Below, one piece after another: positions 25,176-33,822 of a stretch of DNA of 41,107 nucleotides; within the stretch, counting starts at the first letter, position 1, and each line of letters starts with the position of its first letter. Both the position numbers and the translations under genes were made by a program. Below the pieces are notes generated by a model. It was not told the DNA's origin, did no database searches, and saw only the letters and a list, made by a program, of their open reading frames with translations. The DNA is from an uncultured Candidatus Poseidoniales archaeon (lineage in GTDB: Archaea; Thermoplasmatota; Poseidoniia; Poseidoniales; Poseidoniaceae). The stretch spans positions 1 to 41,107 of the forward strand of contig CACODE010000014.1 of the NCBI GenBank assembly GCA_902625885.1. Reading direction: 5' to 3'.

Positions 25176-25886
25176 TCAAGCAAACAGGGCATCGACGTCG
25201 GCGTCGTCATCGTCGTCTTCGGGTTCTTCCTCAACGGCGGGCTCGCTCGGTGTCGTGTCTTCTTCACCGACCGCTTCGGCAGGTGCTTCGCCCTCATCAT
25301 CGTCGGCAAAGAGGTCGTCCCCCTCATCATCGTCAGCAAACAGGTCGTCGCTGTCATCGTCAGCAAACAGGTCGTCGCCCTCGTCATCGTCAGCAAACAG
25401 GTCGTCGCTGTCATCGTCAGCATCGTCTTCAACAGGTGCCTCGTCTTCATCATCGGCCGTGTTGCCGGAAGCAAAGAGGTCGTCGTGTTCTCCATCGTCG
25501 TCGAGTGAGACGCCCATGCCAAACATGTCGACATCGTCAGGAAGAACGCCTTTTCTCGAGAGGTACATCGCTTGGGTTTTGGTGTAGCGGTGCTTGACGT
25601 CGGCCTTTGAATCTTGGAAATCCCAAGGCCACACGATGATGAGATCGCCTTCCCTGACCCACTGACGACGGCGCATTTTTCCAGGAATACGCGCCATCCG
25701 GGTCTCGCCGTCCTCACAGAGCACGGTTACACGGCGTCCACCCAGAATTTGGGAGGCAAGGGCGAACATTTCGTTGACTTTTTTGTTCGGCATTTTGACA
25801 CGGATTTTGCCGTCGCTAGCATTTTCAGGACTCTCAAGACGTGCGAGTTCTTCGACGTCCACTTTTTCCTCAAATCTGCGACCCAA
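25176..25886 (-). CDS. eif1A: Translation initiation factor aIF1A with long acidic DDLF-repeat tail
   Basis: Residues about 25-110 are the S1/OB-fold initiation factor: GGRRVTVLCEDGETRMARIPGKM, RRRQWVREGDLIIVWPWDF and KADVKHRYTKTQ, all hallmarks of a/eIF1A, which binds the A site of the small subunit. Archaeal aIF1A is normally about 100-115 residues; this one has 236. The added 120 residues are acidic and contain DDLF at about 135, 161, 171, 180 and 190, and end DVDALFA. The start is a TTG at 25886 with GGTGA seven bases upstream; no suitable ATG precedes the domain. It is co-transcribed with rio1. Confidence 0.93.
   Translation of the reverse strand: MGRRFEEKVDVEELARLESPENASDGKIRVKMPNKKVNEMFALASQILGGRRVTVLCEDGETRMARIPGKMRRRQWVREGDLIIVWPWDFQDSKADVKHRYTKTQAMYLSRKGVLPDDVDMFGMGVSLDDDGEHDDLFASGNTADDEDEAPVEDDADDDSDDLFADDDEGDDLFADDDSDDLFADDDEGDDLFADDDEGEAPAEAVGEEDTTPSEPAVEEEPEDDDDDADVDALFA
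25290..25406 (-). repeat. In-gene tandem repeat encoding DDLFADDD(S/EG) units
   Basis: Four consecutive units of 27 or 30 bases in the 3' part of the aIF1A gene encode DDLFADDDEG or DDLFADDDS. DNA identity between units is very high (the + strand phrase TCGTCAGCAAACAGGTCGTC recurs), indicating recent duplication or slippage. The frame is preserved throughout. Confidence 0.9.
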
Positions 25887-27682: not shown

Positions 27683-29338
27683 TCACTGGCCACCTCCTGT
27701 CAAAATCGGTATCAGGAAGGCATCAAAGAAGTCCAAAGTCCAGTCGTGCATCATGTCGAGCGCTATCCACGGCATCACGCCGAAGAGGATGGTGAACGCC
27801 GCCATGATGAGCATCGCGCCTTTTTCCGCATCGCTGATGTCGGGCACGGCTTCACCGTGCAGGCTCTCTGGCGGTTGCGTTTCGTCGCCGCCCTCAAAGA
27901 TGGTTCGCTGCATCGACCAGAGGTAATACGCCGCCGTGACGGCGAGAACAAAGGCTGGACCCACCATCCAAAGCACGCTCCAGCCCTCTGAGGAAAGGAA
28001 ATGCCACAAAGCGAGGAACATCATGAGTTCGGCCACGAAGCCGGCCAGCAGCGGCAAGCCCAAGGATGCCATCCAAGCGAACATCATGGACGTGGCGAGC
28101 CAAGGTGAATGCTTGGCCATGCCCCGCATGGCCCCGATTTCCATGCTGTGATAGTGGTGCTTGAACGCACCGCAAACAGCGAACAACATCGGGCTGATGA
28201 TGCCGTGGGCGAACATCATGAACAGGGCGGCCGCCCAGCCAAGCGGCTGCATGGTGGCGATACCGATGAGGATGACACCCATGTGCGAAACAGAGGAGTA
28301 AGCCACCATTTTCTTGAGGTTGGTCTGCCCGAGACAGACCACCGCACCCCAAACCAACGAGACCATCCCGAACGTCAAGAGCCAAAACTGGAAGTGTTGA
28401 GCGGCGTGAGGGAACAACGCCAATGGCAGCCTAAACATGCCGTAAGCCCCCATCTTGAGCATCACACCGGCCAGCAACATGGAACCGCCAGTGGGCGCCT
28501 GAACGTGAGCGTCGGGCAGCCAAGTGTGGAACGGCACCGAAGGCAGTTTCACCAAGAAACCAACCATCAACATGATGAAGAGGATTTTCTGCAGGCTTTC
28601 GCCAAGGAACCATTCGCCAGAGGCGTTGGCGCTTTGAGCGTGGGCGATCAAGGTTGGAATGTCAAAGGTTCGACCCGTCCACTTACCGGCGTGCGGCAAG
28701 TCCTCGGGCTGAAGGAAGTACACGGTGACGAGGCCAAGCAACATGATGACCGAGGCCGTGAACGTATAGATGAAGAACTTCTGAGAAGCGTATTTTCGGT
28801 CTTTTCCACCCCACTTCAGGATGAGGAAGAACATGGGAATCAACGTCAATTCCCAGAAAACGTAGAACATGAAGAGGTCAAGGGAAACAAACACACCGAT
28901 GAGGGCACCACCCATCAGCAAAATCAGCGGGAAGTAGGTTGCGGCGTTTTTCTCGTGCCAGGTAGCCACGATGGTGATGGGCAGCAAAAAGGTGGTCAGC
29001 CACACCATGGGGAAGGACAGCGCGTCCATGCCGACGGTCCAGTGGATGCCCAGCGATTCGATCCAATCGTACCGTTCGTAGTAGTTCAACTGCGAAAAAT
29101 TGAGACCGGTCCAATCGTGCATGTCGCCAATGAAGTTCGCTCCTATGAACATGGCCGTCGTGAGCGCCAACATGACCAGCGAAATCACGAGAGAAACGAG
29201 GCGAATGTTGCCTCCGATGTGTTCTTTTGCCGCTGGCGAAAGGCGGGCCACAAAGGCCAACAAGACAAGGCTGCTGAAGATGGGCAGCGCCACCAGCGGC
29301 AGGGAAATCCAGTCCGTCGTCAAGCGACCAACCCCCAT
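27683..29338 (-). CDS. nuoM: NADH-quinone oxidoreductase-like complex, subunit M
   Basis: An antiporter-like proton-translocating subunit. Motifs are FYVFWELTLIPMFFLILKWGG (TM5 Glu), ASQKFFIYTFTASVIMLLGL (TM7 Lys), VKLPSVPFHTWLPDAHVQAPTGGSMLLAGV (the most conserved stretch of the family) and LKKMVAYSSVSHMGVIL. The C-terminal Gly-rich tail ends GGGQ. 551 residues. The ATG at 29338 lies 19 nt inside the 3' end of nuoL; a TTG at 29323 overlapping the nuoL stop is an alternative. Same strand and no gap to either neighbour, so clearly operonic. Confidence 0.94.
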   Translation of the reverse strand: MGVGRLTTDWISLPLVALPIFSSLVLLAFVARLSPAAKEHIGGNIRLVSLVISLVMLALTTAMFIGANFIGDMHDWTGLNFSQLNYYERYDWIESLGIHWTVGMDALSFPMVWLTTFLLPITIVATWHEKNAATYFPLILLMGGALIGVFVSLDLFMFYVFWELTLIPMFFLILKWGGKDRKYASQKFFIYTFTASVIMLLGLVTVYFLQPEDLPHAGKWTGRTFDIPTLIAHAQSANASGEWFLGESLQKILFIMLMVGFLVKLPSVPFHTWLPDAHVQAPTGGSMLLAGVMLKMGAYGMFRLPLALFPHAAQHFQFWLLTFGMVSLVWGAVVCLGQTNLKKMVAYSSVSHMGVILIGIATMQPLGWAAALFMMFAHGIISPMLFAVCGAFKHHYHSMEIGAMRGMAKHSPWLATSMMFAWMASLGLPLLAGFVAELMMFLALWHFLSSEGWSVLWMVGPAFVLAVTAAYYLWSMQRTIFEGGDETQPPESLHGEAVPDISDAEKGAMLIMAAFTILFGVMPWIALDMMHDWTLDFFDAFLIPILTGGGQ

Positions 29339-31920
29339 ATCATCGAGAAGAGCGCCAGCGTGCCCACGGCGGCCATCAGGATGTAATCACGTGCCGAACC
29401 CGTGGTCAACGCACGCAACTTGGTCGAGAGTTGTTGCGAGGTCCTCTCGATGGTTTTGATGGTGCCGTCGATGACACCAGAATCCGCCTCTGCGGCCTTG
29501 AACGAGAAGGCTGCGACAATTTTCAGCATCGCCATATCGTAATAGTGGTCGAAATAGAGCCGGTTCGAAAGCGCCGTTGAAAAGCCGGATTGAGCAAAGG
29601 ACGTGTTGTCCCAGTGGTACCGACCCTTGATGGCGGCGTTGACCGCAACCACAGGGGCAAACCACGGCATGAGTTTCTCGCCTTCGTTGAGCTTGCCACC
29701 GTACAGCGACAGCGCCAATCCAGGACCGACCAGAGCGGCGAGGAAAATGGCGATGTAGGTCAAGATGAAGAAGCGTGTGTCCTCGTTAGCAAAGGCGTGC
29801 CCGAGTTCGTACACGAGGCCTTCAACGAAACTCTTCTTGCCGTTAAAGAACGGTTCGTAGGTCACATCGGGAGCCCAGTGCGTAAAGCCCATGCTCGCCA
29901 GAACGATGCCACCCAGGCTGAAGAAGGTCAGAACGAACAACGGGATTTTGATCCACGTGTTGGTGGGGTGGACGTGTTCGGCGACCTCTGTCTTCGGAGG
30001 GCCAGCAAACGTCTTCAGCCACATTCTGGACATGTAGAAACCGGTCATCGCCGCACCGAGCAGGACGCACATCGCTGGATAGATGAAGCGCGGGTCAGTA
30101 AAGGCAACGCGCCACGTGTTGGCGATGATGCCTTCCTTCGACCAAAAACCACCGATGAGCGGGAACCCCATGATGGACAGCGAACCGACCAACATCGCCG
30201 TGGCCGTAAGCGGCATTTTTGATGCCAGGCCTCCCATGTTGTCCATGGATTGAGCGTCGAACTCGTCGTGGTGGTCGTCGTGGTGGTCGTCGTGGTGGTC
30301 GTCTTTCCCAGCCAATGAAGCCAAATGGATGCGGCCAAGCGACACCTCGAGTTCCGGGACGTTGATGCGGCCGTTGCCGTCCATGTCAAGCGCTTTCATC
30401 AGCGGCTCCATTTCCCAAGGCGGCAGGTCGGCAATATCGGATTCTTTGAGCGCTCTTTGGAACTCGTACGTGTCCACTTCACCGGACTGGTCGAGATCGA
30501 TGGCGTTGAAGAAGCCGAACACGGACTGCCCGGTTTCCTGCAAGTAATTGGCAAGCATCAGCAACTCTTCGGGGGCGGGCTCGTGATGGTCGTCGTGGTG
30601 ATCGTCGTGATGATGGAGGTGATGGTGGGCGTGGTGCACTTCGTGAATGACCGCTCCGCTCGCCATGAAGAGCATGCCCTTGGCCATGGCGTGGTTGAAC
30701 AGGTGGAAGAGCGCTGCACCAAAGGCCACGATGACGATGCCGTGTGCTTTGTAATCGTGGTGCCAGTCAAGGGTGTTCGCCAGGTAGAGCGCTGCGCCCA
30801 AGCCGGTGAAGATGTAAGCGAGTTGCGACATCGTCGAGTATGCGAGGACCTTCTTCAGGTCGTGTTGAACGAACGCAATGGACGCCGCCATCACGGCCGT
30901 GGTGCCACCGATGGCTGCGATGATGAACGCCAAATCCGTCAGTTCGCCATGGAGGTAGTCCGAGCCAAAGAAGGGGAACATGCGGGCCACGAGGTAAAGC
31001 CCGGCGTTGACCATCGTTGCGGCGTGGATGAGGGCGGAGACGGGCGTAGGGCCCTCCATGGCGTCGGGCAACCACACGTGAAGCGGGAACTGCGCGGATT
31101 TGCCAACCGCCCCAATGAACATCAACCCGAGGGCCCAGGCAAGGGTTCCCGTGCTGCTCTTGGCAACTTCCTTGATGTTAGCATCGTCAAAGACCACGGC
31201 GTAATCCAGGCCGCCCTGCCCAGCACCTGCGTAGGGGTTGAACAGCGTCCACAACATCGCCAAGCCGACCATCAGGAAGACGTCGCCCACCCGGGTGGTC
31301 AGGAAGGCTTTCTTGGCGGCGTAAGCGGCGCTGGGTCGTTCGTAGTAGAACCCGATGAGCAGATAGGAACAAAGCCCCATCAGTTCCCAGAAAATGAACA
31401 GCCAGAGGAACGAATCGGCCAGAACCATGCCGAGCATGCCGGAACAGAACAGAACGAATTCTGCGTAGAAGCGGTGATTGCGGTTGTCGTTGATGGGGTC
31501 GGTGTTCATGTAGCCGACGGCAAAGAGGTTGATGAGAAGGCAAAGGAAGGAAGCGATGAACAGCAACATCACGGTGATGTGGTCAACGTAGATGCCAAAA
31601 CCGAGGGTCAGCGCGGTCGACTTGTTCGTTCCAGACTCCCAAACGGCGGATGTAAACCACGTCCAGCCTTCGGAATCCGCCAGACCGGCGCCGCCGATGA
31701 AGTCCGACACCAGCCACAAGGCGAAGCAGAGGCTTCCCGCCATGACGGGCAGCGCGATGAGGCCGCCTTCCTTGAGACGGTTTTTCCAGAAATCCTTCCC
31801 GTTGAACACCTTGCCGAAAAAGAGGATGAACGGGAAAGCAAGCATCGGCAGCAGCACGATAAGGGGGGCGTAATCCACCGCAGCGGTGTGAACGAGTTCC
31901 TTTGCCTCTGAACCAGCCAT
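29320..31920 (-). CDS. nuoL: NADH-quinone oxidoreductase-like complex, subunit L, with EF-hand insertion
   Basis: The largest antiporter-like subunit, with the lateral-helix C-terminus. The core is normal: WELMGLCSYLLIGFYYERPS, AKKAFLTTRVGDVFLMVGL, QFPLHVWLPDAMEGPTPVSA, LKKVLAYSTMSQLAY and HAMAKGMLFMASGAVIHE. Directly after that helix, about 130 extra residues appear before NMGGLASKMPLT. They comprise a His-rich stretch (about 428-446), an EF-hand loop DLDQSGEVDTYE, a second loop DMDGNGRINVPE and a second His/Asp-rich stretch (about 540-552). The insertion keeps the frame and is absent from ordinary NuoL (about 610 residues; here 866). The ATG at 31920 follows GAGGTGGGG; a GTG at 31929 is an alternative. 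Confidence 0.94.
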   Translation of the reverse strand: MAGSEAKELVHTAAVDYAPLIVLLPMLAFPFILFFGKVFNGKDFWKNRLKEGGLIALPVMAGSLCFALWLVSDFIGGAGLADSEGWTWFTSAVWESGTNKSTALTLGFGIYVDHITVMLLFIASFLCLLINLFAVGYMNTDPINDNRNHRFYAEFVLFCSGMLGMVLADSFLWLFIFWELMGLCSYLLIGFYYERPSAAYAAKKAFLTTRVGDVFLMVGLAMLWTLFNPYAGAGQGGLDYAVVFDDANIKEVAKSSTGTLAWALGLMFIGAVGKSAQFPLHVWLPDAMEGPTPVSALIHAATMVNAGLYLVARMFPFFGSDYLHGELTDLAFIIAAIGGTTAVMAASIAFVQHDLKKVLAYSTMSQLAYIFTGLGAALYLANTLDWHHDYKAHGIVIVAFGAALFHLFNHAMAKGMLFMASGAVIHEVHHAHHHLHHHDDHHDDHHEPAPEELLMLANYLQETGQSVFGFFNAIDLDQSGEVDTYEFQRALKESDIADLPPWEMEPLMKALDMDGNGRINVPELEVSLGRIHLASLAGKDDHHDDHHDDHHDEFDAQSMDNMGGLASKMPLTATAMLVGSLSIMGFPLIGGFWSKEGIIANTWRVAFTDPRFIYPAMCVLLGAAMTGFYMSRMWLKTFAGPPKTEVAEHVHPTNTWIKIPLFVLTFFSLGGIVLASMGFTHWAPDVTYEPFFNGKKSFVEGLVYELGHAFANEDTRFFILTYIAIFLAALVGPGLALSLYGGKLNEGEKLMPWFAPVVAVNAAIKGRYHWDNTSFAQSGFSTALSNRLYFDHYYDMAMLKIVAAFSFKAAEADSGVIDGTIKTIERTSQQLSTKLRALTTGSARDYILMAAVGTLALFSMIWGLVA
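30244..30639 (-). other. EF-hand pair and His/Asp-rich insertion within nuoL
   Basis: This segment encodes the insertion described under nuoL. Both 12-residue loops fit the EF-hand consensus: Asp at 1, Asp at 3, Ser or Asn at 5, Gly at 6, Ile/Val at 8, Glu at 12. The loops lie 37 residues apart, as in a paired EF-hand lobe, with helical segments before and after. The flanking His/Asp blocks are encoded by short GTGGTCGTC-type repeats on the + strand. Confidence 0.88.
30261..30303 (-). repeat. Short tandem repeat encoding His-Asp runs in nuoL
   Basis: A 12-base unit, GTGGTCGTCGTG on the + strand, repeats about three and a half times and encodes DHHDDHHDDHH. A related but less regular block lies at about 30585-30635. 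Both border the EF-hand module. Confidence 0.8.
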
Positions 31921-31930
31921 GCCCCCCACC

Positions 31931-32233
31931 TCAGTTCTTCAGGACGTTGACGTCGTCCAACGTGATCGATTCGTGTTGCCCGTACATGGCAAGGAAAATG
32001 GCCAAGCCGATGGCGACCTCGCTGGCCGCAATGGCGATGGCAAAAATGGTGTAGACCCAACCGGTCGTATCGCCGTGATGAACGGCCGCCGCCGCAAATT
32101 GCATGTTGGCGGCGTTAAGCATCAATTCGATGCACATCAGCACGATGATGGCGTTCTTTCTCGTGAAGGCGCCGGCAAGGCCAATGACAAACAACAGCGC
32201 AGATAGACCGGATACCCACGCCGGGTCGATCAT
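31931..32233 (-). CDS. nuoK: NADH-quinone oxidoreductase-like complex, subunit K
   Basis: A three-helix membrane subunit homologous to MrpC. It shows LSALLFVIGLAGAFTRKNAIIVLMCIELMLNAANM, with the conserved Glu of TM2 (CIELMLNA), and FAIAIAASEVAIGLAIFLAMY with the second conserved Glu in TM3. 100 residues, the standard length. The ATG at 32233 overlaps the stop of the upstream nuoJ second half (ATGA); nuoL starts about 11 nt after its stop. Confidence 0.95.
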   Translation of the reverse strand: MIDPAWVSGLSALLFVIGLAGAFTRKNAIIVLMCIELMLNAANMQFAAAAVHHGDTTGWVYTIFAIAIAASEVAIGLAIFLAMYGQHESITLDDVNVLKN

Positions 32234-32499
32234 TCCTCTTCACCCCCAAACTCCCACAGGAGGTTCTCCATGCGTTCGTCTCGTACGAGGTAGGCCGCGC
32301 CCATCATGGCCATGGCCATCAGAAGACCGAGCGCCAAGAGAGCGAAGCCCCACTCAAAAAGGAGCGATTCAGCAAGGCCGATGGTGGTCGGAGTGGTGGA
32401 AGCCGGTTCAGACCAAACACCTTCTTCGTTGAGCACCGCCACGAGGATGAAGCCAAAAGCAACAAGCCCGAGACGGGTGAACAACGAGGTGAACTTCAT
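32230..32499 (-). CDS. nuoJ2: NADH-quinone oxidoreductase-like complex, subunit J, C-terminal half as separate gene
   Basis: 89 residues with two hydrophobic helices (RLGLVAFGFILVAVL and WGFALLALGLLMAMAMMGAAYLV), matching the last part of NuoJ (TM4-TM5 region, ending near the conserved GAAYLVR). It overlaps the first-half gene by four bases (ATGA) and nuoK likewise. NuoJ split into two genes is known in archaeal complexes (for example FpoJ-N and FpoJ-C of Methanosarcina), so this is a natural split rather than a frameshift: both halves have their own start and stop in the usual coupling arrangement. Confidence 0.82.
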   Translation of the reverse strand: MKFTSLFTRLGLVAFGFILVAVLNEEGVWSEPASTTPTTIGLAESLLFEWGFALLALGLLMAMAMMGAAYLVRDERMENLLWEFGGEEE

Positions 32500-32771
32500 T
32501 CAAAGTCCTCCTCGAGAATTTGGCGCCGCGTGAGCATGATACCGAAAAGAACCACCAACCCCACGCTGGCGAGGTAAACCAAAATTTGAATGGCGGCGAG
32601 AAATTCCGCACCCAGCAGGATGAAAATACCGGACACCGCCATGAAGCAGAAAATCAACGAAAGCATCGAATGTGCGACGCGTTGAGCGAAAATGAGGCCG
32701 AGCGCTCCACCGAGGGTGATGGCTGCAAACAGGAAAAACACACCTGTTTCAGCAGCGCTGGCCACGTCCAT
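32496..32771 (-). CDS. nuoJ1: NADH-quinone oxidoreductase-like complex, subunit J, N-terminal half as separate gene
   Basis: 91 residues with three hydrophobic helices: GVFFLFAAITLGGALGLIF, HSMLSLIFCFMAVSGIFILL and FLAAIQILVYLASVGLVVLFGIML. The GAEFLAAIQILVYLASVGLV segment is the NuoJ TM3 pi-bulge region. The start is the ATG at 32771 (MDVASAAETG), one base after the nuoI stop; a frame reaching 32966 is the shadow of nuoI. It ends with a charged RRQILEEDFE and couples by ATGA to the second half. Confidence 0.88.
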   Translation of the reverse strand: MDVASAAETGVFFLFAAITLGGALGLIFAQRVAHSMLSLIFCFMAVSGIFILLGAEFLAAIQILVYLASVGLVVLFGIMLTRRQILEEDFE

Positions 32772-32772
32772 T

Positions 32773-33822
32773 CTAAGCGTCCCCCTTCGCGGCTTTTGCT
32801 GAGGCTTTGGCCGCCTCGGCCGCTTTTGTGGCGCTGTCGTTCTTGTCTGCATCAGCGGCGGCCTTGGCTGCTTTGGCAGCCTTTTTCGCTCGCTTCTCTC
32901 GCTCCTTGGAGGCTCGCTTTGCCAACTCTGCGTCGACGGCTTCCTGATGAACGCCGGGCAGGACACGGGTGCGAGATGCGTCGAACCACAGGTCTTGCCG
33001 GGTGAAACCGGACATACCGTCGTATTCGTTGGTCATGAAAAAGGACGTGAAGCCACAGGCTTCCATGCACAAACCGCAGAACATGCAGCGGCCAAGGTCG
33101 ATTCTGCCCGAAACGATCTGATCGTCGGCAGGGTAGAGTTCAGCGGCAGCGATAATGGCCTCCTCTCCGGAGTCGTTCCATCGCACGGTGGCGTTATCGC
33201 CCGACAAGTCCAGAACTTCAGCAAATCGCCATTCCTCTGGTGCATCGGCGTGGGCCGTAACGTGGTTGAAGGAGTCGAGCTCCGCCATCACTTCGGGCAC
33301 TTCAACCGCTGCGAATTTACCGACCTCAAGTTCTGCTCCAAACCCGGCGTTCTCGCCTTGAGCGTTGTCGAGAACGTCAACGCGAAGTTCGGTGGTCATG
33401 TGAAGGCAGTCGTTAGGGCACACGTTAACGCACATCTTGCACGCCGTGCACGTTTCCCAAATGACGCCAATGCGTCCGTTGTAGTTTCCGGGGACGAACA
33501 ACCACGGCTCCATGTCTTCAAGACGTTCGTAGGGGTACTGCACGGTTTGCGGTTTCCAAAGCGTGGGTTTGAGATCGGAAGTAACACGATCGGGTGCAAA
33601 CTCTTGACGGCTGATGTCGTTCATGTCAGCGGTGGCTGATGCTCGAGCTCGGCTGCCGTCGTCGAGGAACTCTGGATGTGACGTGTTGTGGTAGGCACCG
33701 AGTCGCTTACCGAACCGCTTGCCGATGAAAGGAAACGTTCGCAACGCTGTGATCAGCGTGATTTTGAACGGGTACCAAAACAAGTTTCTGAAATTAGGCT
33801 GTGCGTGTGGATGCATTGGCAT
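32773..33822 (-). CDS. nuoI: NADH-quinone oxidoreductase-like complex, subunit I (2 x 4Fe-4S), with insertion and Ala/Lys tail
   Basis: A ferredoxin-like subunit carrying clusters N6a/N6b. Cluster motif one is CTACKMCVNVCP (Cys125-Cys135), motif two CMFCGLCMEACG (Cys246-Cys256), where the usual final Pro is Gly. In ordinary NuoI the two motifs are about 30-40 residues apart; here 110, so about 75 residues are inserted (around 145-235, acidic, beta-like). The protein ends in a 50-residue Ala/Lys-rich, probably helical tail (KKAAKAAKAAADADKND and similar). 349 residues against roughly 160-180 usual. The ATG at 33822 precedes a nuoI-like N-terminus with an LFWYPFKITLITAL amphipathic helix. Confidence 0.92.
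   Translation of the reverse strand: MPMHPHAQPNFRNLFWYPFKITLITALRTFPFIGKRFGKRLGAYHNTSHPEFLDDGSRARASATADMNDISRQEFAPDRVTSDLKPTLWKPQTVQYPYERLEDMEPWLFVPGNYNGRIGVIWETCTACKMCVNVCPNDCLHMTTELRVDVLDNAQGENAGFGAELEVGKFAAVEVPEVMAELDSFNHVTAHADAPEEWRFAEVLDLSGDNATVRWNDSGEEAIIAAAELYPADDQIVSGRIDLGRCMFCGLCMEACGFTSFFMTNEYDGMSGFTRQDLWFDASRTRVLPGVHQEAVDAELAKRASKEREKRAKKAAKAAKAAADADKNDSATKAAEAAKASAKAAKGDA

Follow-up and report, generated by a model that had tools for sequence, protein, structure and literature searches.

An EF-hand pair in the proton-pumping NuoL subunit of marine archaea points to possible calcium control of energy conversion

Introduction

To our knowledge, it is a matter of debate whether cytosolic Ca2+ directly controls complex I or ATP synthase in mitochondria, and no such control has been described in archaea. 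Type II NADH dehydrogenases (NDH-2) are non-pumping flavoproteins unrelated to the complex I subunit NuoL. For the plant NADPH dehydrogenase NDB1, the available text describes an EF-hand domain that extends a surface loop, and activation by Ca2+ (PMC4587368). In the antiporter family to which NuoL belongs, available passages describe H369/K377 and K432/E433 as channel residues of MrpA (PMC7419157) and mention K399/D400 of E. coli NuoL (PMC9271201). Calcium-binding domains are also listed as lineage-specific among the family-specific protein modules of Poseidoniales, as far as the available text goes (PMC9258230). Here, we describe an EF-hand pair inside NuoL in a 41,107-nucleotide contig of an uncultured Candidatus Poseidoniales archaeon (GCA_902625885.1, CACODE010000014.1; the window).

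Results

An EF-hand pair lies between TM11 and TM12 of NuoL

The nuoL reading frame has no internal stops, and its product scores 424.4 bits against the NuoL family model TIGR01974 (NCBIfam; cut-off 407.5); the equivalog model NF005141 ranks first by E-value, yet its 447.5 bits fall below a cut-off of 556. The Pfam antiporter domain Proton_antipo_M is split, with its best stretch at residues 171-435 followed by a second one, and across all 869 residues Pfam otherwise reports only EF-hands and one sub-threshold dockerin match, with no flavoprotein fold of the type II NADH dehydrogenase kind. The operon is that of a NuoL, with nuoJ and nuoK upstream and, downstream, nuoM (TIGR01972, 438 against a cut-off of 263.8) and nuoN (TIGR01770, 287.6, below the cut-off of 332.6).

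29320..31929, minus strand: nuoL, 869-aa proton-pumping complex I subunit with internal EF-hand module (intact ORF, profile search)
31931..32233, minus strand: nuoK, without EF-hand (PF00420 as sole Pfam match)
32230..32499, minus strand: second half of NuoJ, 89 aa, ending in GGEEE, here without EF-hand, unlike its counterparts in g9 and g15 (assigned by resemblance to relatives rather than by its own profile search)
32496..32966, minus strand: first half of NuoJ, without EF-hand (PF00499, profile positions 1-63 of 146)
30643..30720, minus strand: TM11, around residues 404-429, bearing H409 and K417, which we assign to the distal proton channel (hydrophobicity, helix count)
30583..30636, minus strand: first His/Asp-rich run, residues 432-449 (sequence)
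30316..30576, minus strand: EF-hand pair module, about residues 452-538 (Pfam, lobe alignment, AlphaFold2 model, Foldseek)
30463..30498, minus strand: EF loop 1, D478-E489, DLDQSGEVDTYE (sequence, Pfam, alignment of 23 NuoLs)
30352..30387, minus strand: EF loop 2, D515-E526, DMDGNGRINVPE (sequence, Pfam, alignment of 23 NuoLs)
30256..30303, minus strand: second His/Asp-rich run, residues 543-558 (sequence)
30121..30216, minus strand: TM12, about residues 572-603, with K598 and E599, which we assign as distal channel lysine and exit acid (hydrophobicity, alignment)

The original prediction, made from the DNA letters alone, placed an EF-hand pair at 30244-30639, and this span holds: it corresponds to residues 431-562, the 132-residue loop between TM11 and TM12, in which the pair lies within a His/Asp-rich run. 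The two loops start 37 residues apart, in frame and with a His/Asp run on either side, and both carry D, N, S or E ligands at positions 1, 3, 5, 9 and 12 and a Gly at position 6. Profile scores of the 132-residue segment are far beyond chance: EF-hand_5 (E = 1.3e-9), EF-hand_1 (6e-9) and EF-hand_6 (3.5e-8) all exceed their cut-offs, as does the pair model EF-hand_7 (4.6e-7, 30.5 bits against a cut-off of 30). With the whole protein as query, the first three stay above their cut-offs and EF-hand_7 drops below (26.1). The pair is thus a genuine one, as had been claimed. An AlphaFold2 model of 112 residues (mean pLDDT 72.1) predicts two helix-loop-helix units along with two short strands, the paired fold of an EF lobe. 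Foldseek against the PDB gave an EF1-EF2 pair as best match (E 3.4e-3, target-normalised TM 0.72), with ACF7 EF1-EF2, centrin, calmodulin and troponin C among the top matches; none reached E 0.001, and some matches are unlabelled chains of large assemblies.

The conserved channel residues E182, K277, H302, H409, K417, K598 and E599 are all present, and K598/E599 align with the FWSKD motif of solved relatives. We assign their roles by analogy with the available text of PMC7419157: H409/K417 would correspond to MrpA H369/K377 (both spaced 8), and K598/E599 to MrpA K432/E433 and E. coli NuoL K399/D400. The helix bearing HAMAKGMLF, described earlier as preceding the loop, does so and is TM11 by helix count. 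The same count predicts that the loop and its lobe face the cytoplasm, in agreement with the original expectation; the full-length NuoL model (mean pLDDT 39.5) was used neither for sidedness nor for contacts between lobe and channel.

The module recurs throughout the genus and is under purifying selection

The window organism is itself Poseidonia-like, and the EF-bearing insert occurs in 28/28 Poseidonia-type (g1) genomes whose NuoL covers the TM11-TM12 loop, as the proposed alignment of relatives was meant to reveal, and the same in-frame insert in 28 genomes rules out an artefact of assembly or frame. Five of these NuoLs were incomplete or had unresolved bases, leaving 23 for alignment. Positions 1, 3, 5, 9 and 12 of loop 1 are invariant in these, as are positions 1 and 12 of loop 2, in which positions 3, 5 and 9 are always D or N; of the 10 side-chain ligand columns, 7 are therefore invariant and 3 vary between D and N only. 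Loss of the acidic residues in relatives, which would have spoken against calcium binding, is not seen, and the only departure from the loop consensus is one Gly6-to-Glu change in loop 2. Mean column identity is 0.93 for ligand columns vs 0.71 in the rest of the module, a level matched by 358 of 100000 random column sets. Pooled pN/pS of the module is 0.234, indicating purifying selection. The membrane core on either side has 0.094 and 0.066, which the module exceeds by a factor of between two and a half and three and a half, and the remaining C-terminus is close to the module at 0.202; all ratios are rough because pS is 0.60-0.94.

NuoL likely gained the module twice

EF-hands had been called foreign to NuoL, and the pair is indeed absent from all 26 directly read NuoLs of 18 genera outside g1 and g9. 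Among 57 matched sequences, no NuoL-like chain had a best-matching stretch crossing residues 436-540. The second EF-bearing genus, g9, belongs to the order's other family; 9/9 of its NuoL-bearing genomes encode an EF-bearing NuoL. Its interloop is one residue shorter than in g1, and Arg replaces Gly at position 6 of loop 1 in 9/9 sequences, so this lobe may bind weakly (loop 2 of g9 was read by eye). For g1, 12 named contigs are probably search-set genomes and add no evidence of their own, since each of the 11 readable loops is identical to one in the search set; their titles do point to assembly by several separate projects.

In a tree of NuoL built without the loop, the g9 proteins fall inside their own family (f2) and the g1 proteins inside theirs (f1), each on 100/100 branches. 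This rules out sideways transfer of a whole NuoL between the two families, and the well-supported branches force two changes in EF-hand presence. Because the EF-bearing NuoLs of g1 and g9 stand apart, two gains are likely; a single ancient gain followed by many losses is costlier by parsimony. The EF lobe alone may have moved between families without NuoL; a tree of the lobes, with 83 columns for 78 rows, leaves 41 of 75 inner branches without full support.

Homologous lobes occur on other membrane proteins

A survey of NuoL, NuoJ and ATP-synthase subunit I within one phylum identified further carriers, whose EF pairs are 41-60% identical to that of the window NuoL. NuoJ carries the lobe in g9 and g15. 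Subunit I of the A-type ATP synthase carries it in 5/5 genomes of g13, the sister genus of Poseidonia, vs 0/25 genomes of other genera; placement on NuoL or ATP synthase is reciprocal in the sister genera examined. The fourth carrier is a multi-helix membrane protein, with which loci L155, L160, L161 and L162 were grouped by resemblance. We considered whether it is haem-copper oxidase subunit I and rejected this: a profile comparison with 16 COX1 proteins gave about 1% probability (E 0.056) and the EF-hand is its sole Pfam match, so it stays unclassified.

Discussion

The best explanation of these observations would be a cytoplasmic regulatory or docking domain that responds to divalent cations, with Ca2+ the likeliest, and was repeatedly recruited to proton-translocating machines. 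This is to us an evenly balanced proposition. The lobe would derive from a family of EF pairs found widely across this archaeal order, and it would have entered a pre-existing His/Asp-rich linker joining TM11 and TM12, the helices to which we assign charged residues of the last proton channel and of its exit. While cytosolic Ca2+ is at its resting level, the lobe would be apo or Mg2+-bound and the linker slack; rising Ca2+ would open the lobe, which could then pull on TM11/TM12 or dock on a neighbour and thereby alter the pumping rate, the slippage or the stability of the complex. Since a homologous lobe sits on NuoJ or ATP-synthase subunit I in related genera, what they would have in common is that calcium adjusts how proton-motive force is made or used. 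Matches to the Na+/Ca2+ exchanger family in 26/26 genomes are compatible with controlled cytosolic Ca2+, but such genes are common in prokaryotes (11/14 controls). Against this reading stand the pN/pS of the module, higher than that of the membrane core, and the Arg in loop 1 of g9. Long flexible His/Asp linkers could also uncouple the lobe from TM11/TM12, and we know of no Ca2+ signal in these archaeal cells. More tentative, and somewhat doubtful, is the extension to a single transferable lobe that would place calcium control on whichever proton machine a lineage regulates: NuoL for Poseidonia, NuoL together with NuoJ for g9, NuoJ for g15 and ATP-synthase subunit I for g13.

The lobe might instead carry Ca2+ or Mg2+ at all times and sense no changes, serving as a structural or docking module that holds a partner protein, supercomplex neighbour or assembly factor on the cytoplasmic face. 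A tethered domain would suit the flexible linkers, and recurrence on several membrane machines is expected if these share one partner. A PPW motif on the surface between the loops is kept in 12/15 lobes aligned from the four kinds of carrier. However, the three lobes lacking PPW are those of g1's own unclassified membrane protein, against a single partner within that genus; no shared partner emerged from the analysis, and the ligand set is canonical. We regard this non-sensing reading as fairly unlikely.

Near-neutral insertion, by illegitimate recombination at His/Asp codon repeats that landed a folded lobe harmlessly and kept it only for stability, is improbable. The acceptor sites in NuoL and subunit I are both His/Asp-rich linkers, which in the window genome are alike (...DDHHEPAP and ...DDHHHEPAP, respectively), and the two genes share an exact 14-base stretch there, weak support given its low complexity and the lack of a chance control. 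Against this stand the preferential conservation of ligand residues, the presence of the module throughout the genus and its repeated acquisition on proton-translocating complexes. Equally improbable is a metal sponge, one of the options first proposed, in which the His/Asp runs and EF-hands together hold Zn2+, Ni2+, Cu2+ or Ca2+ near the membrane independently of pumping: His-rich stretches do border the lobe in NuoL and in EF-bearing subunit I, but one lobe per complex offers a tiny capacity, and a loop of 21-47 residues with at least 5 His occupies the same site in all 26 module-free NuoLs. The two subunit I sequences of g1 that were read directly likewise have a His-rich linker but no EF-hands, so one feature can occur without the other. 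The original prediction therefore stands in its observation of an EF pair and in part of its interpretation, and falls where it tied the His/Asp runs to the EF-hands.

If calcium responsiveness is real, it would amount to direct Ca2+ control of archaeal chemiosmosis, evolved in parallel with and independently of mitochondrial schemes. Abundant surface-ocean archaea would gain a candidate link from calcium to energy, and sister genera differing in the lobe-bearing machine would offer a natural experiment. Among the best-matching literature titles, none reports an EF-hand in a core subunit of either complex I or ATP synthase. The modules of PMC9258230 come from the same order and include calcium-binding domains, and its available text does not mention NuoL, NuoJ or ATP synthase. 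Like calmodulin-type lobes, the module has two canonical loops, whose starts lie 37 residues apart, and, in the predicted structure, paired strands; unlike them, it is a single lobe in or on membrane energy-coupling subunits, mostly with a PPW interloop. The window protein passes the NuoL cut-off and has the charged residues of TM7, TM8, TM11 and TM12 found in NuoL/Nqo12/ND5 and MrpA, from which it differs by the EF-hand pair in its TM11-TM12 loop of 132 residues. A precedent is found in the external NDB-type NDH-2 of plants and fungi, respiratory NAD(P)H dehydrogenases that, as far as the available text describes them, also bear an EF-hand as a surface-loop extension; in the archaeal case, however, the host of the lobe is a complex I membrane subunit that pumps protons.

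An EF-hand pair within NuoL

The window carries a nuo operon of nuoJ (in two pieces), nuoK, nuoL, nuoM and nuoN.

29320-31929, minus strand: nuoL, 869 aa (TIGR01974, 424.4 bits against a cut-off of 407.5)

In NuoL, 132 residues separate the helix ending ...NHAMAKGMLFMASGAVIH from the helix starting ...KMPLTATAMLVGS, leading from a His/Asp run through an EF-hand pair to a second His/Asp run. The EF loops, DLDQSGEVDTYE and DMDGNGRINVPE, start 37 residues apart; four Pfam EF-hand models score above cut-off on this segment, and three do so on full-length NuoL. AlphaFold2, given the 112-residue module and 12 relatives, predicts the EF pattern twice (mean pLDDT 72.1). Foldseek matched the model to EF-hand proteins, though the E-values are modest: the best is 3.4e-3 and none reaches 0.001.

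We searched 318 genomes of the order for the module, then read and recounted the loops. It occupies the NuoL loop in 28 of 30 genomes of the window's Poseidonia-like genus, g1, or 28/28 where judgeable, since G018 begins past the loop and no NuoL match reached the threshold in G008. An EF pair at the same loop is found in 9 of 10 genomes of genus g9 (9/9 where judgeable, because G202 gives no match), which belongs to f2, presumably the order's other family. No module was found in the NuoL loops of 26 genomes from 18 other genera, each read directly; these loops are 21-47 aa long with at least five His each. G133, of genus g13, was left out because N-masking covers its loop, and g2 and g6 NuoLs were judged from split matches alone. 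Across the phylum (389 genomes), module and NuoL flanks were spanned only in g1 and g9 among the matches listed. Genome G009 has two nuoL copies, on contigs L045 and L046 (84% and 81% identity to the window's), and may be a mixed bin.

Selection was assessed on 23 of the 28 g1 NuoLs, five being dropped as incomplete or carrying unresolved bases. Pooled pN/pS is 0.234 for the EF pair, 0.094 and 0.066 for the flanking core and 0.202 for the rest of the C-terminus, ratios that are rough because pS is 0.60-0.94. The ten side-chain ligand columns are conserved: seven are invariant and three hold only D or N, with a mean column identity of 0.93 versus 0.71 in the remainder of the module, a value matched by 358 of 100000 random ten-column sets. 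In g9, Gly6 of loop 1 is Arg in 9/9 NuoLs; loop 2 is canonical as judged by eye.

Repeated recruitment to proton-translocating machines

A tree of 47 NuoL sequences, with the loop taken out, places g1 inside family f1 (Poseidoniaceae) and g9 inside f2, each clade at 100/100, and its well-supported branches force two changes of module state. Among the genera in this tree, g13 is sister to g1 (100/100); the module was not found in the three g13 NuoLs read. The A-type ATP synthase subunit I of g13 (PF01496, 113.9 bits) has a homologous lobe immediately ahead of its membrane domain in 5/5 genomes. Subunit I has no insert in 25/25 genomes of other genera (seven from g1), as the matches there stop at residue 310-318 and restart at 408-414. 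Both g1 subunit I sequences read directly have a His-rich linker at the corresponding site, which in the window's own genome reads ...DDHHHHDDDHDDHHHEPAPP.... The acceptor sites in NuoL and subunit I are thus both His/Asp-rich linkers, and the sister genera g1 and g13 picked different machines.

NuoJ is a third carrier.

32496-32966, minus strand: first half of NuoJ, which is split between two overlapping genes
32230-32499, minus strand: second half of NuoJ, overlapping the gene for the first half; ends ...LLWEFGGEEE, with no lobe

In g9, the second half of NuoJ has a homologous lobe near its end, 46-55% identical to the window's (five genomes) and present in 7 of 9 genomes, the stretch lying outside the DNA examined in the other two. 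Genus g15 has it in 2/2 genomes examined. In profile searches, two of the EF-bearing ORFs matched the NuoJ family PF00499 over its C-terminal half, with E=7e-4 and 1.7e-6, both below the curated cut-off. Because most EF-bearing second halves shown retain the GGEEE ending after the lobe, it looks inserted rather than added at the C-terminus. One such second half (L120 1180-2211, G199) bears an extra C-terminal extension of ~150 residues, and similar text occurs in L079 and L080. In the window, an ORF at 32773-33822 (minus strand), which we take to be a probable NuoI from its ferredoxin-like Cys motifs, has a long Lys/Ala-rich C-terminal tail that overlaps nuoJ.

Other EF-pair proteins

The lobe was detected at E <= 1e-10 in 27 of 44 surveyed genomes and 14 of 22 genera. 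Many f1 genomes encode a multi-helix membrane protein of ~650-860 aa with the lobe at its C-terminus; in all nine loci checked for neighbours it adjoins a gene presumably for an Obg-like GTPase. A conserved membrane protein of 656-665 aa, predicted to have ~12 helices and bearing an EF pair at its C-terminus, lies beside such a presumed Obg-like GTPase gene at three loci:

L035 396-2390
L139 1703-3682
L133 2009-3976

Two scanned members have no Pfam family beyond EF-hand. Identity to the window's NuoL lobe is 41-43% for lobes of the g1 multi-helix protein and higher for those of g13 proteins (54-60% in five of six, 44% in one), so by sequence identity the multi-helix protein is not an obvious recent donor.

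Remoter EF pairs occur in zinc-ribbon proteins. At four loci (L039, L047, L048, L059), the proteins have several EF pairs along with Cys motifs resembling zinc ribbons, and two membrane helices can be made out by eye at the C-terminus; the LPP motif between the loops of the NuoL module recurs in some of these EF pairs. A protein on two near-identical contigs of G038 (L040, L041) opens with a signal-like segment and a single membrane helix, followed by a motif resembling a zinc ribbon and by an EF pair. A 628-aa protein (L146 337-2220, G180) has an EF pair very similar to the module and a remainder unlike other carriers. The window also encodes a small basic protein (25176-25886, minus strand), a probable translation initiation factor 1A, whose acidic tail repeats units similar to DDLFADDDEGDD.

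Membrane side and proposed function

Solved Mrp and complex I structures show the beta-hairpins facing the periplasm and helix HL, which lies between TM15 and TM16, facing the cytoplasm; the key lysines are found in TM7, TM8 and TM12 (PMC7419157). With HL cytoplasmic, odd helices would run from outside to inside and the TM11-TM12 loop bearing the module would face the cytoplasm, a reading drawn from published topology rather than from the full-length NuoL prediction, whose confidence was too low (pLDDT 39.5). The TM9-TM10 loop (QHDLKK) is consistent with the positive-inside rule. The window's NuoL K598-E599 corresponds to MrpA K432-E433 on TM12 (PMC7419157); it also corresponds to K399-D400 of E. 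coli NuoL, the pair through which protons are proposed to leave (PMC9271201). NuoL H409 and K417, eight residues apart, correspond to MrpA H369 and K377, and we read their TM11 location from helix order. The module would link this helix to the one with the proton-exit pair.

Na+/Ca2+ exchanger-family matches in 26/26 genomes searched make low cytosolic Ca2+ plausible in these archaea, although such genes are common (11/14 controls). The presence, fold class, ligand conservation and fixed position of the module and its repeated recruitment are shown by the data, while its cytoplasmic side, ion binding and regulatory role are inferred. We favor a lobe that would bind Ca2+ and respond to it in a regulatory or docking role, at roughly even odds. 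A purely structural docking lobe is possible though less probable, and a metal buffer or a tolerated insertion each seems unlikely.

For a Ca2+-responsive lobe, the best functional precedent is plant NDB1, in which a surface loop bears an EF-hand domain and NADPH oxidation is Ca2+-dependent, with half-activation at ~1-120 μM varying with pH and acceptor (PMC4587368). The NuoL module may work alike, although NuoL lies outside the NDB1 family. Calcium-binding proteins specific to families are described in Poseidoniales (PMC9258230). Among the literature matches listed, drawn mostly from outside the subscription literature, no title dealt with an EF-hand in ATP synthase subunit I, NuoJ or NuoL. 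Respiratory enzymes with an EF-hand domain are known; in these archaea the domain sits on proton-translocating core subunits.
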